Source of the DNA: Acidimicrobiaceae bacterium
GTDB taxonomy: Bacteria > Actinomycetota > Acidimicrobiia > Acidimicrobiales > RAAP-2
Reading direction: 5' to 3'
Length of the DNA stretch: 34,510 bases
Assembly: GCA_027306525.1 (NCBI GenBank)
Contig: DAHUZM010000004.1
Coordinates: 1-34,510 of the forward strand
This document shows positions 13,403-25,179 of this stretch, piece after piece. How positions within the stretch are numbered: position 1 is the first letter of the stretch; each line of letters opens with the position of its first letter. The translations under genes were made by a program, and so were the position numbers. Under the pieces are notes generated by a model that was given only the letters and a program-made list of their open reading frames with translations, ran no database searches and was not told where the DNA came from.

Positions 13403-13548
13403 CGGAGCAGCCCACCATGAACCCGGGCCCGCCCGCAACGGCGTCCCGACTCGAGACCGCTGGGACGCGGGCGTCGTGAAATTCCACTTTCCCTGGTGAC
13501 AAGCCGTGTGGGACGCTAGTGAGACGTAGTGCGGTGCACACTGCCTGT

Positions 13549-13672
13549 GGTGCCTCTCGGGGAACCGCAGGCACCAGGGGCGGAGCGTTGATCCGTCAGG
13601 CACAGATGGTCGCCTGGCTGACGGGGAGCGAGTGGCGAAACCGACGCCCTTTCGGACTGTCGAACCGAAAGG
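13549..13672 (+). promoter_or_regulatory. structured 5' leader hiding the FtsH-like gene's RBS
   Basis: Three perfect-stem hairpins follow each other just before the FtsH-like gene: GGTGCCT 13549-13555 with AGGCACC 13569-13575; CCGTCAG 13593-13599 with CTGACGG 13618-13624; and CCTTTCGG 13648-13655 with CCGAAAGG 13665-13672. The last stem includes most of the AAAGGA that serves the GTG at 13679, so translation should be low unless the stem opens. This is the layout of a cis-regulatory RNA such as a riboswitch, thermosensor or protein-bound leader. I could not match a known family. The pairings are seen directly; the regulation is inferred. Confidence 0.55.
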
Positions 13673-13678
13673 ACGTGT

Positions 13679-15577
13679 GTGAGCAGGGCGCACCACTCCA
13701 GCCACCAAGGTTGGGCGGAGGACGAAGCGCGACGCGCCCCCGCCGTCCCGCCGGACGCGCCGGCCGAGGCCGCCGACCAGCTCCGCGAGCGGACGCTCGA
13801 GAGGCTGACCTCCCTCGGAGCGATCCGGATGGGGGCCGACGTCGCTGCGGCGCGTGAACGTGCGCGCCAGCGCCGCCTGCTCTGGTTGGCCGTTTTCTTG
13901 GCGCCCATCGCGGCGTGGCTCCTCGTCCGGGTCCTCGTCTGGCACCGCTATTCCTTCTCGTTCCCCCACATCCCGAGCACGTTCGCCCCGTATCTGCCCG
14001 GCGTCGTGCTCCTGGTCTTGCTCGTCGTCGCCATGGTGGCATCGCTGCTCGGCGGCGGCCGGTCCCCCCACGTCTTGTTCCGGCCGAGCGAGATCGACGT
14101 GCACTTCGACGACGTCAGGGGCGCCGACGTCGTGGTCGAAGAGGTGCGCAAGACGTTGAACCTCTTCCTCGCCCACCGCACGTTCGCTGAGGAGATGGGC
14201 GGCACGCCGCGGCGGGCCATCCTCTTCGAGGGGCCGCCCGGCACCGGGAAGACCTACCTCGCGAAGGCACTCGCAGGCGAGGCCGGCGTGCCCTTCCTCT
14301 TCGTCTCGTCCTCGGCCTTCCAATCCATGTATTACGGCGCGACCAACCGGAAGATCCGCGCCTACTTCCGTGCGCTTCGTCACCACGCGCGCCGAGAGGG
14401 CGGCGCCATCGGCTTCATCGAGGAAATCGATGCCATCGGCGCCTCGCGCGCGGGCCGCGGCTTTGGCCACCGCGAGGGCATCGCCGGGGTCGTGAACGAG
14501 CTGCTGATCCAGCTCCAATCGTTCGACACCCCGACGGTGGGCACGCGGATGGTCGGCGCGCTAGTCGACTTCGCGAACCAATGGCTGCCCCGCGGTCGCC
14601 AGCTGGCCAAGCCGACCTCTCGGCCCGCCAACATGCTCGTGATCGGCGCCACCAACCGGGCCGACGACCTCGATCCGGCCCTGCTGCGGCCGGGACGCTT
14701 CGACCGCTCGATCTACTTCGATCTGCCCACGAGGGCCGGTCGGCGGGAGATCATCGACTACTACCTCGCGAAGAAGGCGCACGCCGCCGAGCTCGACGAT
14801 CCCGCCCGCCGGGAGGCGCTGGCCGGCATGACGGCCGGCTACTCACCGGTGATGATCGAGCACCTGCTCGACGAGGCACTGGTGTGGGCGCTGCGACGGG
14901 GCGCCGACGCCCTCTCGTGGCCCGACATCACCCGAGCCACGATGACGAGCGAGATCGGGCTCGCGAACGGCGCCCTGTACACCGAGGCCGAGCGGCGACT
15001 GATCGCGACCCACGAAGCGGGCCATGCCACCGTCGCCTGGCTCGTCGGTCGAGGCCGGACCCTCGATGTGCTCACCATCGTGAAGCGGAAGGAGTCGCTC
15101 GGGCTCCTGGCCCATTCGGACACCGAGGAGCGCTTCACGAGGACGCGCAGCGAGATGCTGGCGATGATCCAGATCGCGATGGGTGGAATGGCCGCCGAGG
15201 AGCTCTTCTTCGGAGAGACCTCCTCGGGCGTCGCCGGAGACCTCGCGGCAGCGACGGCGACCGCGTGTCAGATGATCGGCGTGCTCGGGATGGGCACCTC
15301 GCTCATCGTCGACAACTCGACCAGCCTGAGCGCGCCGAGCGACGTGGCGGCCAAGGTGCTGACCCACGACGACGGGCGCGCCGAGGTCGAACAGCTCTTG
15401 TCACGCTCCAAGGACGAGGCCCGATCGATGCTCAACGAGAACCGCCACGTCATCGAGGCCTTGCGCGATGCGCTGCTCGAGCGCGAGGAGCTCGTCGGGC
15501 CCGAGATCACCGCCGTGATCAGCGCGGCGCGCCCCGACGCCCTGCGTCCCCCGATGACCGAGCGGCTCGGGGTCTAG
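13679..15577 (+). CDS. divergent FtsH-like membrane AAA+ zinc protease
   Basis: A 632-residue membrane-anchored ATP-dependent protease. Two membrane helices at about 68-88 and 104-125 frame a short external loop, followed by an AAA+ module. That module has Walker A GPPGTGKT 185-192, Walker B GFIEEID 245-251, sensor ATN 324-326, and Arg-finger region RPGRFDR 337-343. The M41 peptidase domain has the zinc motif HEAGH 445-449 and third ligand D521 in SSGVAGD. Features unlike housekeeping FtsH are the pore loop SMYYG instead of the usual MFVG, an extra 35 or so residues around 283-317 after the second region of homology, a shortened periplasmic loop, and a charged N-terminal extension. It is probably an extra FtsH paralogue with its own substrates. 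The GTG start follows AAAGGA held in a hairpin. Confidence 0.88.
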   Translation: MSRAHHSSHQGWAEDEARRAPAVPPDAPAEAADQLRERTLERLTSLGAIRMGADVAAARERARQRRLLWLAVFLAPIAAWLLVRVLVWHRYSFSFPHIPSTFAPYLPGVVLLVLLVVAMVASLLGGGRSPHVLFRPSEIDVHFDDVRGADVVVEEVRKTLNLFLAHRTFAEEMGGTPRRAILFEGPPGTGKTYLAKALAGEAGVPFLFVSSSAFQSMYYGATNRKIRAYFRALRHHARREGGAIGFIEEIDAIGASRAGRGFGHREGIAGVVNELLIQLQSFDTPTVGTRMVGALVDFANQWLPRGRQLAKPTSRPANMLVIGATNRADDLDPALLRPGRFDRSIYFDLPTRAGRREIIDYYLAKKAHAAELDDPARREALAGMTAGYSPVMIEHLLDEALVWALRRGADALSWPDITRATMTSEIGLANGALYTEAERRLIATHEAGHATVAWLVGRGRTLDVLTIVKRKESLGLLAHSDTEERFTRTRSEMLAMIQIAMGGMAAEELFFGETSSGVAGDLAAATATACQMIGVLGMGTSLIVDNSTSLSAPSDVAAKVLTHDDGRAEVEQLLSRSKDEARSMLNENRHVIEALRDALLEREELVGPEITAVISAARPDALRPPMTERLGV

Positions 15578-17611: not shown

Positions 17612-18475
17612 TCATCCCACCATCGGCTGGTAGTTGGCGGAGTCAGGTGACAAGCGGTAGACGGTGCTGTCGTCCTCGGACTGGCCCCCTGCGGTCCTGC
17701 CGGTGGAGACGCCGTTCACCTGGAGGTCGATCGTGACCGCGTAGATCTCGTCGCTCTTGCAGTTCGCGAGCGGGTCACTCGACGACGTGGGCGTGCTCGT
17801 GCACGACGCGAATGCCGAAGCGTCGTCGCTGTAGAAGCAGGACGGCGAGGAGCATCCGCTCCCGACCTCGGGCGTCGTGGTGGTCGTGGTCCCCGAGCTC
17901 GAGGTCGAGTTCACGATCAACGTGTAGACGAAGAGGGGGGCGTTGTCGTTCGCGTTCGACACCCCGTTCACCGTGATCAACGTGCGCGCCGCCCCCCACG
18001 TGCATCCGCTGCCCGCAGGTGGGCACGTACCGGCGTTCGCGTGCGCCTCCGTCACGGTGAAGGTGCCGCCGGCGTCGCACAGCCCGGTGCTCGGGTTCGC
18101 GGATTGGCAGCTGGCCACGATCTCTGCCGGCCCGTTCGGGTCACCGACGTTCGTGTAGAAAGTCATCGAGGTCGGCGAGGTCGCCCCGGTGACATATGGA
18201 GGGTCGGGCACGCCATTGGTGCTCGGGCCCGGTTCGACCGCTGATCGCACGAACCGCTGCAGGTTGGTGGACACCGGCAGCAGCTGGTTGACGTTCGTGT
18301 AGGTGTTGTTCACCCGGGCGACGGTGGCAAAGACCGTGTCGACGATCGGCACTGTCATCGCGAACAAGACGAGCAACGTGACGAGGGCGATGCTCAGCTC
18401 GACCAACGTCACGCCAGATTCCCCCCCGCCCGCCGCCTCGAGGCGCCGCCGATGACCGAGGCAGATCGCTCGCAT
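17612..18475 (-). CDS. PilW-like minor pilin
   Basis: A 287-residue prepilin-like protein. The leader ends in GESG21, followed by VTLVELSIALVTLLVLFAMTVP, which matches the class III signal peptide cut by prepilin peptidase (Gly at -1, Glu at +5) and the long N-terminal pilin helix. The soluble part is Ser/Thr-rich with a few Cys residues (ASCQ, GLCDAGG, GSGCTW, GSGCSSPSCF). Size and order suit PilW/GspJ-type minor pilins that prime pilus assembly. Its ATG overlaps the stop of the previous gene in TGATG, and the next gene starts one base after its own stop, so the three are translationally coupled. Confidence 0.82.
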   Translation of the reverse strand: MRAICLGHRRRLEAAGGGESGVTLVELSIALVTLLVLFAMTVPIVDTVFATVARVNNTYTNVNQLLPVSTNLQRFVRSAVEPGPSTNGVPDPPYVTGATSPTSMTFYTNVGDPNGPAEIVASCQSANPSTGLCDAGGTFTVTEAHANAGTCPPAGSGCTWGAARTLITVNGVSNANDNAPLFVYTLIVNSTSSSGTTTTTTPEVGSGCSSPSCFYSDDASAFASCTSTPTSSSDPLANCKSDEIYAVTIDLQVNGVSTGRTAGGQSEDDSTVYRLSPDSANYQPMVG

Positions 18476-21315
18476 CAGTCGGGGATCGGCACGTATGCCG
18501 GCATGTAGTAGGTCGTCTGGGAGTTCGTTCCCACCACGATGGAGGTGGGGTTCACCGTGACCGTCGTCGTCGCGTGCTGGTTGCCCGAGGTGACCGTGAC
18601 CTGGTAGGTGCCATAGATGACGGCGATCCTGCTCAGCCCGTCCACGGCTGAGTTCGGCATCGCGTAGCTCGTGGGGTTCGACGGGTTGGCCGGCGGGTTC
18701 GAGAGGGCGGGGTACGAACCGCTGCTTTGCGGCACGAGTTGGCTCGAACAGGTCTGGTCGACGATCGAGATCGTGGCGTTTGAGAGCGCGTTCCCGTTGC
18801 TGTCCACCGCCTCGATCGGGAGGATGCCCATCTCAAGGGGAGCATTGAGGGTCGAGGTGCCGCCCGGTGCGCTCGCTGCCGTGACCGAGTTCGCCGTCGC
18901 CTCGCTCGAGCAATAGCCGACCGACACGGAGTACCCGCTCGAGAAGGGGAACAGCGGGCCCACCTCGGTCTGAGGTCCGTTGGAGGTCGTGGGCGCCGAC
19001 ATCTCCACGACCGTGCTCGGTTGCAGGTTGGAGTTGGAGACCATGATCGGCGGGTTCGAGAGGTACATGCCGGTCAGGCTGTTCGGCGTTCCCCCCGCAT
19101 CGAACTTGGCCCCCGAGCTCGTGTAGTCGAAGACCTGACCGGCCGACTCGGTCGCACCGGCCATGAAGCAGGTGGTGGCCGCCGTGCACCCGATGCCGCT
19201 GATGTACACGGGACTGGCACCGGCCTTCGTGTTGGTGAAGCTCGTCGCGCTCCAGCTTCCCGACGCGAGCACATCGACGAAGGCTGCCGTCGAGGTCGTG
19301 CCGGCGACGAAGCAGCTGGTCCCCGTCGCGCAGGTCAGCTGGGTCGTCGAGACGACGTTCGAGGCGTTGGGGAGGGACGCCGCGCTCCATGTGGTGCCCG
19401 AAAGCGAGAGGACCCCCGCCGAGGAGCTGGTGCTGTCGAGGGCGAAACAGGCGGTGCTCGAAGGACAGGTCAGCGACGTGATCGCCGAAACCGAAGAGGG
19501 CACCGAATCACTCGTCCACGTCGAGCCGTTGCTCCCCGACGCGCACTGCGAGCCCGAGGACGTGTTGCAGTACAGGATCATCGGGGAGCCCGAGCCCCAC
19601 CAGTTGGTCTGCCCCGTGCCTCCGGCCCAGCAGTAGTTGCCCGATGGCGCACAGGCCAGAGTCGTGAGGCTGTCCACCGTCATGCCGCTTGCCGTGTACG
19701 GCTTCCAGACAACCGTCGTCCCGCTCACGCTTGCGATCGAAATGATCTCAGGCGTCGTATAGGTGTACCAGTAGTAGCCCGACGTCGAACTTCCGAGGGC
19801 CATGCAGAAGGTCGGCGAGTTGCAGACGAGCGAGGTGATCGAGGTCATCGACACGCCGCTCTCGGAGAACGCGTGCCAGGAGGTCCCGGGCGACGAGGAG
19901 CCGGTGTTGGAGAGGATCGTCGGTCCCCCGGAGGTGGTGCCGAGCACGAAGCACACCGGTTGAGTGGTCGTGCTCGGACAGGTCAGCTCGCTGAAGCCAG
20001 TATTGGAAGGCACCGTGTCGTTCGTCCACGACACGGTGGACCCCGAGACGGTCGCCGTCAGGATCACGCCGCTCCCCGAGGAGCTCGTACCGATCGCGAT
20101 GCAGTTCAACGTCGTCGCGCCGCTCGGACAGCTGATGCTCGTGAGCTGGGTGACGTTGGCGCTCTCGGGCAACGAGCTGTTGGACCACGAGGTGCCGTTC
20201 GTCGAGACCGCCGCCGACCCGCCCGACGACCCGTAGCCCACGGCGATGCAGGTGCTCGAGGTGCACGCGAGGCCTTCGATCCGGCTCATGGTCGAGGGGA
20301 AGCTCGCCGTCGACCACCCCGAGCTCTTTCGGGCGATGCCATCCGCGACCGGGCTCGCCGCCGGCGCAGTCGCGCTGGCCGCCGTTTGGCCCATCGCGAG
20401 ACAGATGAGGAAGGAGGTGTTGGGACAGCTGATGCCATCGTCGATGGCGGTCGAGCTCGGGTACGAAAGGTCGATGTAGGCGCCCTCGTCGTATTGGAAC
20501 GTCACCTGGGTGACCTGGGCCGCGACCACGGTGATCGGTGACTGGTTCGAAAGGGCCTGGGTCTCCGAGCTCGCCTCGTTGTAATTGGCGACGTAGGGAG
20601 CGGGTGAACTCGGGCCGGGGCCGACCTGGACCGTGTAGGTGCCGGGCGCGGCCGCAAGGAAGGTGCAGCCGTTGGCGCCCGGGGTGAGCGAGTAGGGGGT
20701 CGTGAGCGAGGACCCCGACACCTCGATCGGAACGTTCGTGACGCGGTTGGCCCAGGTCACCCCCGATGCATCGTTCGGGGGATTCCCCGCGGGATCGCCG
20801 TTCACCTGGATTGCGAGGTAGCCGTTCGCGATGGTGCCGGTGGCCGGGAAGTTCAAGATGGCCTGATCGGTGATGCTCTGCCCGCTGCCCCACTTGACGG
20901 TGACCTGGAGGGCAAGGACTGGCGATGTCCCCGAGTCACAGAAGTCCGGCGTCCCGCCGCTCGCGTCGGTCCATTGAAAGATGGCCGACGCCGTATAGGG
21001 GATCCCCGAGAGCGTCTTGGTCCCCTCCGAGAGGGTGGTGCCCACCTCTGGCTCGTTGTTGGCGTCGGTCGGAGGGCCCGAGTTGTTGAGATTCTCGATG
21101 ATCTGCTCGGCAAAAGAGAGCGCCGTGATGCGCTGGCGCGCGGTCGCCGATTGCCCGAGGACGTTGGTGAACAGGTAGGCGGTCGGCACGAGGACGGCCA
21201 TCAGGACCAGCATCGCGACGAGGCACTCGATGAGGCCGAACCCCTCCTCGCCGCGAGCGACCCCGGCGATCGGCGCTCCCGGGGCCCGCGTGGGGGCATG
21301 CCGGAACGCCCTCAT
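18475..21315 (-). CDS. PilV-like minor pilin fused to Cys-pair beta-propeller-like repeats
   Basis: A 946-residue protein. The prepilin leader ends at RGEEG25, followed by FGLIECLVAMLVLMAVLVP with Glu at +5. After a pilin-like stalk and Ig-like or carboxypeptidase-regulatory-like segments (to about residue 285), there are eight or nine repeats of 40-55 residues. Each has the pattern LxC(4-8 residues)C followed by hydrophobic-xG, a Ser/Gly/Thr-rich stretch and a Trp, for example LACTSSTCIAVGYGSS, LTCPSSTACFALDSTS and LTCATGTSCFVAGTTS. This looks like a disulfide-braced beta-propeller. A final beta domain follows. Normal PilV proteins are 150-200 residues, so the C-terminal part is an added adhesin-like module. 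The ATG at 21315 lacks its own ribosome-binding site and overlaps the leader ORF stop. Confidence 0.82.
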   Translation of the reverse strand: MRAFRHAPTRAPGAPIAGVARGEEGFGLIECLVAMLVLMAVLVPTAYLFTNVLGQSATARQRITALSFAEQIIENLNNSGPPTDANNEPEVGTTLSEGTKTLSGIPYTASAIFQWTDASGGTPDFCDSGTSPVLALQVTVKWGSGQSITDQAILNFPATGTIANGYLAIQVNGDPAGNPPNDASGVTWANRVTNVPIEVSGSSLTTPYSLTPGANGCTFLAAAPGTYTVQVGPGPSSPAPYVANYNEASSETQALSNQSPITVVAAQVTQVTFQYDEGAYIDLSYPSSTAIDDGISCPNTSFLICLAMGQTAASATAPAASPVADGIARKSSGWSTASFPSTMSRIEGLACTSSTCIAVGYGSSGGSAAVSTNGTSWSNSSLPESANVTQLTSISCPSGATTLNCIAIGTSSSGSGVILTATVSGSTVSWTNDTVPSNTGFSELTCPSTTTQPVCFVLGTTSGGPTILSNTGSSSPGTSWHAFSESGVSMTSITSLVCNSPTFCMALGSSTSGYYWYTYTTPEIISIASVSGTTVVWKPYTASGMTVDSLTTLACAPSGNYCWAGGTGQTNWWGSGSPMILYCNTSSGSQCASGSNGSTWTSDSVPSSVSAITSLTCPSSTACFALDSTSSSAGVLSLSGTTWSAASLPNASNVVSTTQLTCATGTSCFVAGTTSTAAFVDVLASGSWSATSFTNTKAGASPVYISGIGCTAATTCFMAGATESAGQVFDYTSSGAKFDAGGTPNSLTGMYLSNPPIMVSNSNLQPSTVVEMSAPTTSNGPQTEVGPLFPFSSGYSVSVGYCSSEATANSVTAASAPGGTSTLNAPLEMGILPIEAVDSNGNALSNATISIVDQTCSSQLVPQSSGSYPALSNPPANPSNPTSYAMPNSAVDGLSRIAVIYGTYQVTVTSGNQHATTTVTVNPTSIVVGTNSQTTYYMPAYVPIPD

Positions 21316-21347
21316 CGCGTGTCTGCCCGGCCGCACTCGTAGGCCAT
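21312..21347 (-). CDS. 11-codon leader ORF coupled to the PilV-like gene
   Basis: A short frame reading MAYECGRADTR. Its ATG at 21347 is preceded by the only strong purine-rich ribosome-binding region here (GGAGAGG, then GGGAAAG). Its TGA overlaps the pilin ATG as ATGA. Ribosomes loaded at this site would be delivered to the pilin gene by termination-reinitiation. It may be a control point for the riboswitch upstream. The alternative is that the pilin starts at an in-frame GTG at 21336. Confidence 0.5.
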   Translation of the reverse strand: MAYECGRADTR

Positions 21348-21351
21348 CAGA

Positions 21352-21418
21352 CTTTCCCTTTTCCTCTCCACGTCCGACACAGGTCTGGGAAAGCCCTCGA
21401 TTCGGCAGCGGAGCTGCC
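21352..21418 (-). promoter_or_regulatory. candidate expression platform of the riboswitch
   Basis: Between aptamer and leader ORF there is a tight hairpin (GGCAGC 21418-21413, GCTGCC 21409-21404) and then a possible long-range stem, CTTTCCC 21393-21387 with GGGAAAG 21358-21352. The second stem would cover the ribosome-binding region of the leader ORF. There is no run of U residues, so translational control is more likely than termination. Pairings are read directly; the switching mechanism is inferred. Confidence 0.45.
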
Positions 21419-21425
21419 ACCGTTT

Positions 21426-21497
21426 CGACGGCCCGGCTGACTCCCAGAGTCCCGTGGCTTTGCGCCGCCCTCTCACGAGGGGTTTGCCTTTTCGTCG
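21426..21497 (-). promoter_or_regulatory. cyclic-di-GMP-I (GEMM) riboswitch aptamer
   Basis: On the minus strand the conserved GEMM core is plain: AGGCAAACC, then a stem CCCTC-GTGA-GAGGG capped by a GNRA tetraloop, then GGCGCAAAGCCACGGG, then a stem GACTC-TGG-GAGTC, then AGCCGGGC. The outer helix CGACG 21497-21493 pairs with CGTCG 21430-21426. This is the established type I c-di-GMP aptamer, in which the GNRA loop docks on a receptor in the other stem. It lies about 80 bases before the leader ORF of the pilin operon. A covariance-model search against Rfam RF01051 would confirm it. Pilin and chemotaxis genes are frequent targets of this class. Confidence 0.92.
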
Positions 21498-21530
21498 GCG
21501 CGCCAATGAAGCTGCCTCCGATCAGGGAAA

Positions 21531-21536
21531 AGACTA
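21531..21536 (-). promoter_or_regulatory. possible -10 box for riboswitch transcript
   Basis: On the minus strand TAGTCT lies about 34 bases before the aptamer, the right place for a promoter that transcribes the whole riboswitch. No good -35 hexamer is seen at 16-18 bases, so this is tentative. Confidence 0.25.
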
Positions 21537-23997: not shown

Positions 23998-24032
23998 GCA
24001 CGACGCCACTTCGGGTGCGCGAGAAATCCCTG

Positions 24033-25150: not shown

Positions 25151-25179
25151 CGGTGCCCCGGGAGACGCCCGGGGCACCG
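25151..25179. terminator. strong bidirectional hairpin terminator
   Basis: CGGTGCCCCGGG 25151-25162 and CCCGGGGCACCG 25168-25179 form a perfect 12-base stem with a 5-base loop. It lies between the converging ends of the Rpf-like gene and mscR. There is no clear U tract, as is common in GC-rich actinobacteria. Confidence 0.75.

Follow-up and report, generated by a model that had tools for sequence, protein, structure and literature searches.

Two unrelated classes of c-di-GMP riboswitch on facing units of a putative surface-attachment island in uncultured Acidimicrobiaceae

We uncovered a locus at which two structurally unrelated riboswitch aptamers of the cyclic di-GMP (c-di-GMP) classes face each other across two convergent gene units. 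It lies in a 34,510-nucleotide (nt) stretch of an Acidimicrobiaceae genome (contig DAHUZM010000004.1 of assembly GCA_027306525.1), hereafter the window. A class I aptamer precedes a pilV-pilW-pilX operon of minor pilins, and a class II-GAG aptamer precedes the gene for an FtsH-like membrane protease. With a probability of about 0.72, we read the locus as a c-di-GMP-responsive surface-attachment island, in which both RNAs would sense c-di-GMP and act on translation; the attachment genes and the protease are probably set by one signal. The parts are known but newly arranged here: two c-di-GMP riboswitch classes on facing units, a putatively coupled leader open reading frame (ORF) and, in the class I aptamer, a systematic U at ligand position 92. 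A literature search returned no published account of such a two-class arrangement, which is weak evidence of novelty, most subscription papers lying outside that search.

The source assembly is a draft (2.9 Mb in 190 contigs, 89% complete). The same island was found in seven genomes including this one, namely six of one genus (G000, G001, G002, G003, G004 and G006) and G063. The contigs that carry it belong to Acidimicrobiaceae or other actinobacterial metagenome-assembled genomes (MAGs), the relatives with names being Acidimicrobiaceae MAGs, and thus the actinobacterial host surmised in a preliminary description of this DNA stands. The hosts are uncultured soil actinobacteria.

A cmscan search of the whole window against Rfam 15 returned only two RNA families above their gathering scores (35 bits for RF01051 and 40 bits for RF03169), c-di-GMP-I and c-di-GMP-II-GAG. 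The class I match is full-length and far above its gathering score (E 2.2e-8 for the whole window), and it contains GGCAAACC, a GNRA (GUGA) tetraloop and GCGCAAAGCC. It thereby bears out the complete GEMM core that the preliminary description had read at 21426-21497 of the minus strand, and for which it had proposed this very search. The aptamer occurs as a single copy in the assembly, and its core is kept in the island genomes although the pilins have diverged to 60-71% identity.

The three genes that follow lie on one strand, as had been described. They do not all overlap, however: pilV and pilW share 1 nt (TGATG), whereas pilW and pilX are separated by 1 nt. Likewise, the span first assigned to the system (18475-21536) holds pilV and its leader, but the operon continues to 15583. 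The assignment of the products to the PilV, PilW and PilX types is upheld by clear prepilin N-termini in PilV (EEG↓FGLIE) and PilW (ESG↓VTLVE), each with a hydrophobic helix, and by a GspK/PilX-like third protein that lacks Glu5; the PilV N-terminus matches TIGR02523 (PilV) at 22.5 bits against a cut-off of 52.2. The label “giant” fits PilV and PilX but not PilW. Beyond its pilin helix PilV contains about nine modules with one cysteine pair each, spaced at roughly 45-62 residues; the pairs run from positions 297/305 to 710/716 and most of these cysteines are invariant in 14 diverse homologues, a pattern suggestive of an ectodomain built from repeats, for example a propeller. No family for the ectodomains was found among Pfam, NCBIfam and PDB profiles, and Ig-like domains appear in only a few homologues. 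AlphaFold2 models built from six related sequences were unusable (mean predicted local distance difference test scores of 35 for PilV and 27 for PilX); hence, the earlier epithet “adhesin-like” was a guess.

The 11-codon leader ORF starts 76 nt 3′ of the class I aptamer and is preceded by a ribosome site rich in purines, and pilV has no Shine-Dalgarno sequence (SD) just 5′ of its own start. The ORF recurs in all seven genomes, with the peptides MAYECGRADTR, MAFECGRPDTR, MANQDASTVAS, MANQDASTVTS, MANGCGPVGWSC (twice) and MANGCGPIVGSC. Its length varies between 11 and 12 codons by a one-codon shift between clades, and the stop-start overlap with pilV is preserved at 4 or 7 nt. As this overlap is kept in all seven, we infer that the arrangement is a signature of translational coupling. 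The ribosome site of the leader ORF can in turn be closed by a predicted 10-bp duplex of -16.4 kcal/mol, which only 1 of 1000 shuffles matches. At most 1 in 1000 shuffled leaders pairs as well in G000, G063 and G001, which represent two clades. One pair of this helix appears as U-A, C-G and G-C across three clades; the pairs were read by eye from the predicted duplexes, since in G003 and G004 the hairpin arms had been wrongly aligned by MAFFT. In thermodynamic folding of the window leader, enforcing the aptamer lowers the predicted SD accessibility from 0.76 to 0.35, and so the fold of the window favors OFF for the pilin switch, the other genomes giving no preference.

On the opposite side, the class II-GAG aptamer ends 23 nt before the protease gene. 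The protease has intact Walker A and HEAGH motifs and, for the third zinc ligand, SG...DL; since it scores 300.7 bits against the NCBIfam FtsH cut-off of 600, we consider it a divergent FtsH paralogue. The 3′ end of the aptamer, CCUUUCGG, pairs with CCGAAAGG, in which the protease gene has its ribosome site; this pairing is perfect in most genomes. Aptamer helix P1 and the SD hairpin compete for the same CCCUU, and in folding, enforcing P1 raises SD accessibility in all five class II leaders, strongly in four and weakly in G063. The protease leader is thus predicted to be an ON switch. A literature search found no published ligand tests for the class II-GAG variant. Upstream of this aptamer, at 13452-13571 of the plus strand, the island genomes also share conserved stretches such as TGTGGGACGCT..GAGAC. 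The protease gene converges on pilX with the stop codons 5 bp apart, and in relatives the two are separated by 4, 4, 9 or 79 bp or overlap by 55 bp; therefore, any read-through would yield antisense RNA.

In the mechanism that we propose, the class I aptamer would determine whether the hairpin formed by 21387-21396 and 21349-21358 takes in the ribosome site of the leader ORF. pilV would then be translated through stop-start coupling to this ORF, with pilW and pilX following by overlap. At the facing unit, a ligand-stabilized P1 would take CCCUU from the CCUUUCGG/CCGAAAGG hairpin and expose the protease ribosome site. PilD would process the three pilins, which would join a type IVa (T4a) pilus encoded elsewhere in the genome, probably as a tip or priming complex.

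The island is inherited as a set. Both the class I-pilVWX and the class II-GAG-protease units are present in each of the seven genomes, and they are convergent wherever they lie on one contig; in G001 they are at the ends of two contigs. The remaining member of the genus, G005 (91% complete), has neither aptamer, no PilX and no protease orthologue (best match 37%), and nonetheless has the core pilus ATPases. The two aptamers, the operon and the protease are thus present or absent together and behave as one unit. More widely within the taxonomic family, 36 of 172 genomes have relatives of PilX, with the order V-W-X in the loci that we read. Among the 30 PilX-bearing genomes outside the genus, a class I aptamer is found on the operon’s contig in G063 only, a count that contig ends limit. 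The synteny of aptamer and operon, a check put forward in the preliminary description, holds within the genus, where the operon has not lost its aptamer; in the other 29 genomes no class I aptamer is seen on the operon’s contig. Accordingly, riboswitch control is either a lineage-specific gain or was lost elsewhere. In G018 (contig C27) and G045 (C102), protease orthologues lie on contigs other than those with the class II-GAG matches of these genomes. G063 is classified in a different genus (g6), but the PilX on its contig C23 shares about 89% identity with that of the window, and the neighbors match; a mis-binned contig, a misplaced genome or a recent transfer are alternative accounts of this oddity.

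Certain observations weigh against our interpretation. In G003 and G004, which are richer in G+C, shuffled leaders form the SD hairpin equally well, and enforcing the class I aptamer leaves SD accessibility unchanged in the other five leaders. As all seven genomes are drafts of related organisms from about three clades, they amount to few independent observations. Further, an alignment that includes the Vc2 aptamer and the Rfam consensus shows U in six of the seven pilV aptamers at position 92, the class I position that pairs with one ligand guanine, and this change is expected to weaken c-di-GMP binding. It is C in G004 and in all 31 other class I aptamers of the same order, including those at other loci of the same genus (Fisher p 2.5e-6, relatedness ignored). 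The ligand-contacting G20 and A47 are kept in the window aptamer and in the other pilV aptamers. Single natural variants at positions G20 or C92, described by Smith et al. in 2010, are said to bind c-di-GMP still.

One could take U92 to mean that this class I variant senses another cyclic dinucleotide, such as 3′,3′-cyclic GMP-AMP (cGAMP), whose adenine would pair with U92. The confinement of U92 to the pilV aptamers fits this idea, as does the G20A/C92U double mutant of class I, which is weak for c-di-GMP and accepts c-di-AMP; A47 is conserved throughout the class, and G20 and C92 less so (PMC9049102, PMC7288161). However, G20 and A47 are retained, the change known to admit cGAMP is G20A, at position 20 (PMC7288161), and the G004 aptamer has C92 at the same location. 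Moreover, Hypr enzymes have a Ser in place of the canonical Asp of the GGDEF domain (PMC6456294), and of the 20 GGDEF domains that we read, taken from four genomes, every one has the canonical Asp and none the Hypr Ser. On this account, and given the said binding by single variants, a switch of ligand appears quite improbable and c-di-GMP stays the likely ligand. U92 then most likely means that the pilin switch has a lower affinity and so responds at a higher c-di-GMP threshold. The pilV aptamer could also be a decaying relic in which U92 marks fading ligand binding, with expression set by the hairpin and the leader ORF alone. Apart from U92 itself, the scores of the pilV aptamers (52.6-63.3 bits, against up to 71.9 for others in the same genomes) and the fold that is insensitive to the aptamer in five leaders point this way. 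We nevertheless hold it to be very unlikely: the remaining core positions are kept in seven genomes despite a strongly diverged flanking leader, every match is far above the gathering score and G005 lacks operon and aptamer alike.

Control might instead be mainly transcriptional, by termination or at the promoter, with the leader ORF a chance frame, and the conserved block 5′ of the aptamer could be cited in its favor. This appears unlikely, as no terminator-like stem with a T run was found between the class I aptamer and pilV, and the ORF’s start, ribosome site and stop-start overlap are kept in all seven genomes despite the change in length. A bolder version of the c-di-GMP island, which we regard as doubtful, is a two-sensor switch. 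Here, the class I (U92) and class II-GAG aptamers, differing in affinities or ligands, would drive the pilus genes and the membrane protease oppositely, reinforced by overlapping convergent transcripts (coding ends 4-79 nt apart or a 55-nt overlap).

Table 1. Features of the island, in coordinates of the window
Feature	Position	Strand	Details
c-di-GMP-II-GAG riboswitch aptamer	13572..13655	+	RF03169, complete, 56.0 bits (gathering score 40), E 1.2e-8; in all seven island genomes
CCUUUCGG...CCGAAAGG hairpin	13648..13672	+	Predicted to bury the protease-gene SD; competes with aptamer helix P1
FtsH-like AAA+/M41 protease gene	13679..15577	+	PF00004 and PF01434; Walker A at residue 185, HEAGH at residue 445
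pilX, GspK/PilX-like pilin, 675 residues	15583..17610	-	Orthologues 69-71% identical
pilW, prepilin, 287 residues	17612..18475	-	Motif G↓VTLVE; N_methyl match weak; orthologues 68-73% identical
pilV, large modular prepilin, 946 residues	18475..21315	-	TIGR02523 at the N-terminus, below cut-off; orthologues 60-64% identical
Leader ORF, MAYECGRADTR*	21312..21347	-	4-nt overlap between its stop and the pilV start; same arrangement in seven of seven genomes
3′ arm and leader-ORF SD region (GGGAAAGUCU)	21349..21358	-	Predicted duplex with 21387-21396
5′ arm (GGGCUUUCCC) of hairpin able to close the ribosome site	21387..21396	-	10-bp duplex with 21349-21358
c-di-GMP-I (GEMM-I) riboswitch aptamer	21424..21498	-	RF01051, 55.4 bits; aligned with 37 other aptamers; G20 and A47 kept, U at position 92
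Conserved block 5′ of the class I aptamer (TAGTCTTTTCCCTGATCGGAGG)	21515..21536	-	Conserved in island leaders; candidate promoter or transcription start region

The block upstream of the class I aptamer is strongly conserved in the island genomes and occurs once in the window, and no sigma-70 consensus was found. Further upstream lies a conserved CATCCCC. The block might be a protein site or a promoter for a sigma factor of unknown type.

Our analysis also points to related configurations elsewhere in the order. The pairing of this RNA with pilins had been considered uncommon, but class I aptamers also precede pilin genes at G043:C51 (three, before pilA copies), G045:C25 (pilA) and G043:C6 (minor pilins), and the pairing is therefore not unique. 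At the first of these (L090, G043:C51:53000-70000), three class I aptamers (record positions 60736, 61582 and 62394), each with a pilA, stand in tandem; the products are nearly identical 165-residue major pilins, and pilus assembly genes come after them. In G018, contig C36 (L080), a class II-GAG aptamer (record position 24012, plus strand) and a class I aptamer (record position 25171, plus strand) are about 1.1 kb apart on the same strand and precede genes for a glycosyltransferase-like and a secreted protein. In several genomes of the order (L093, L097, L100 and L092), class I aptamers stand before genes for secreted proteins that start like CAP/SCP-domain proteins (..INSLRAS..).

The genome of the window encodes PilB/PilT-type (T2SSE) ATPases together with PilC-, PilD-, PilM-, PilN/O- and PilA-like proteins on contigs C95 and C32 (L111 and L113 of G000). 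This constitutes T4a-type machinery, with a PilA of the GFTLIELMVV type, in an actinobacterium, unlike the Tad-type (Tfpc) pili listed for the actinobacteria studied up to a 2019 review (PMC6916266). By analogy with the PilVWX proteins of other bacteria (PMC5979040, PMC7541494), PilV, PilW and PilX may serve this machine as a tip or priming complex. Several GGDEF proteins are encoded in the same genome.

The locus offers a natural case in which a single functional island appears to have recruited two RNA folds, unrelated to each other but for the same second messenger, to operons that face each other, with one riboswitch apparently acting through a coupled leader peptide. Because some members of the operon family have the aptamer and others lack it, the consequences of acquiring riboswitch control are directly comparable between genomes, and the split between U92 and C92 provides a ready natural test of affinity or ligand tuning.

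Among known systems, a monoderm case of 2015 (cited in PMC6916266) likewise has a c-di-GMP riboswitch immediately ahead of type IV pilin genes. The aptamer there is reportedly of class II and serves the major pilin operon; in the island, large minor pilins follow an aptamer of class I, translational features accompany it, and the other class faces it from across the locus. The GEMM-I cGAMP riboswitches of Geobacter (PMC8835794, PMC6456294) have the aptamer fold and the extracellular and pilus-related physiology in common with the island, but there position 20 is the variant one and a Hypr GGDEF enzyme exists, whereas the island has G20 and U92 and no Hypr GGDEF was seen among the domains read. 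In Streptococcus sanguinis, also a monoderm, the minor pilins PilB and PilC are modular (PMC8179133, PMC9934059) and, like the pilins of the island, join a pilin helix to a large C-terminal module; the island ectodomains differ in matching no described family. Finally, the V-W-X order is shared with the PilVWX and PilY1 systems of Pseudomonas and Myxococcus, which makes a priming or tip role plausible by analogy; unlike these systems (PMC5979040, PMC7541494), the present operon has no PilY1 gene and its PilV is oversized and repetitive.

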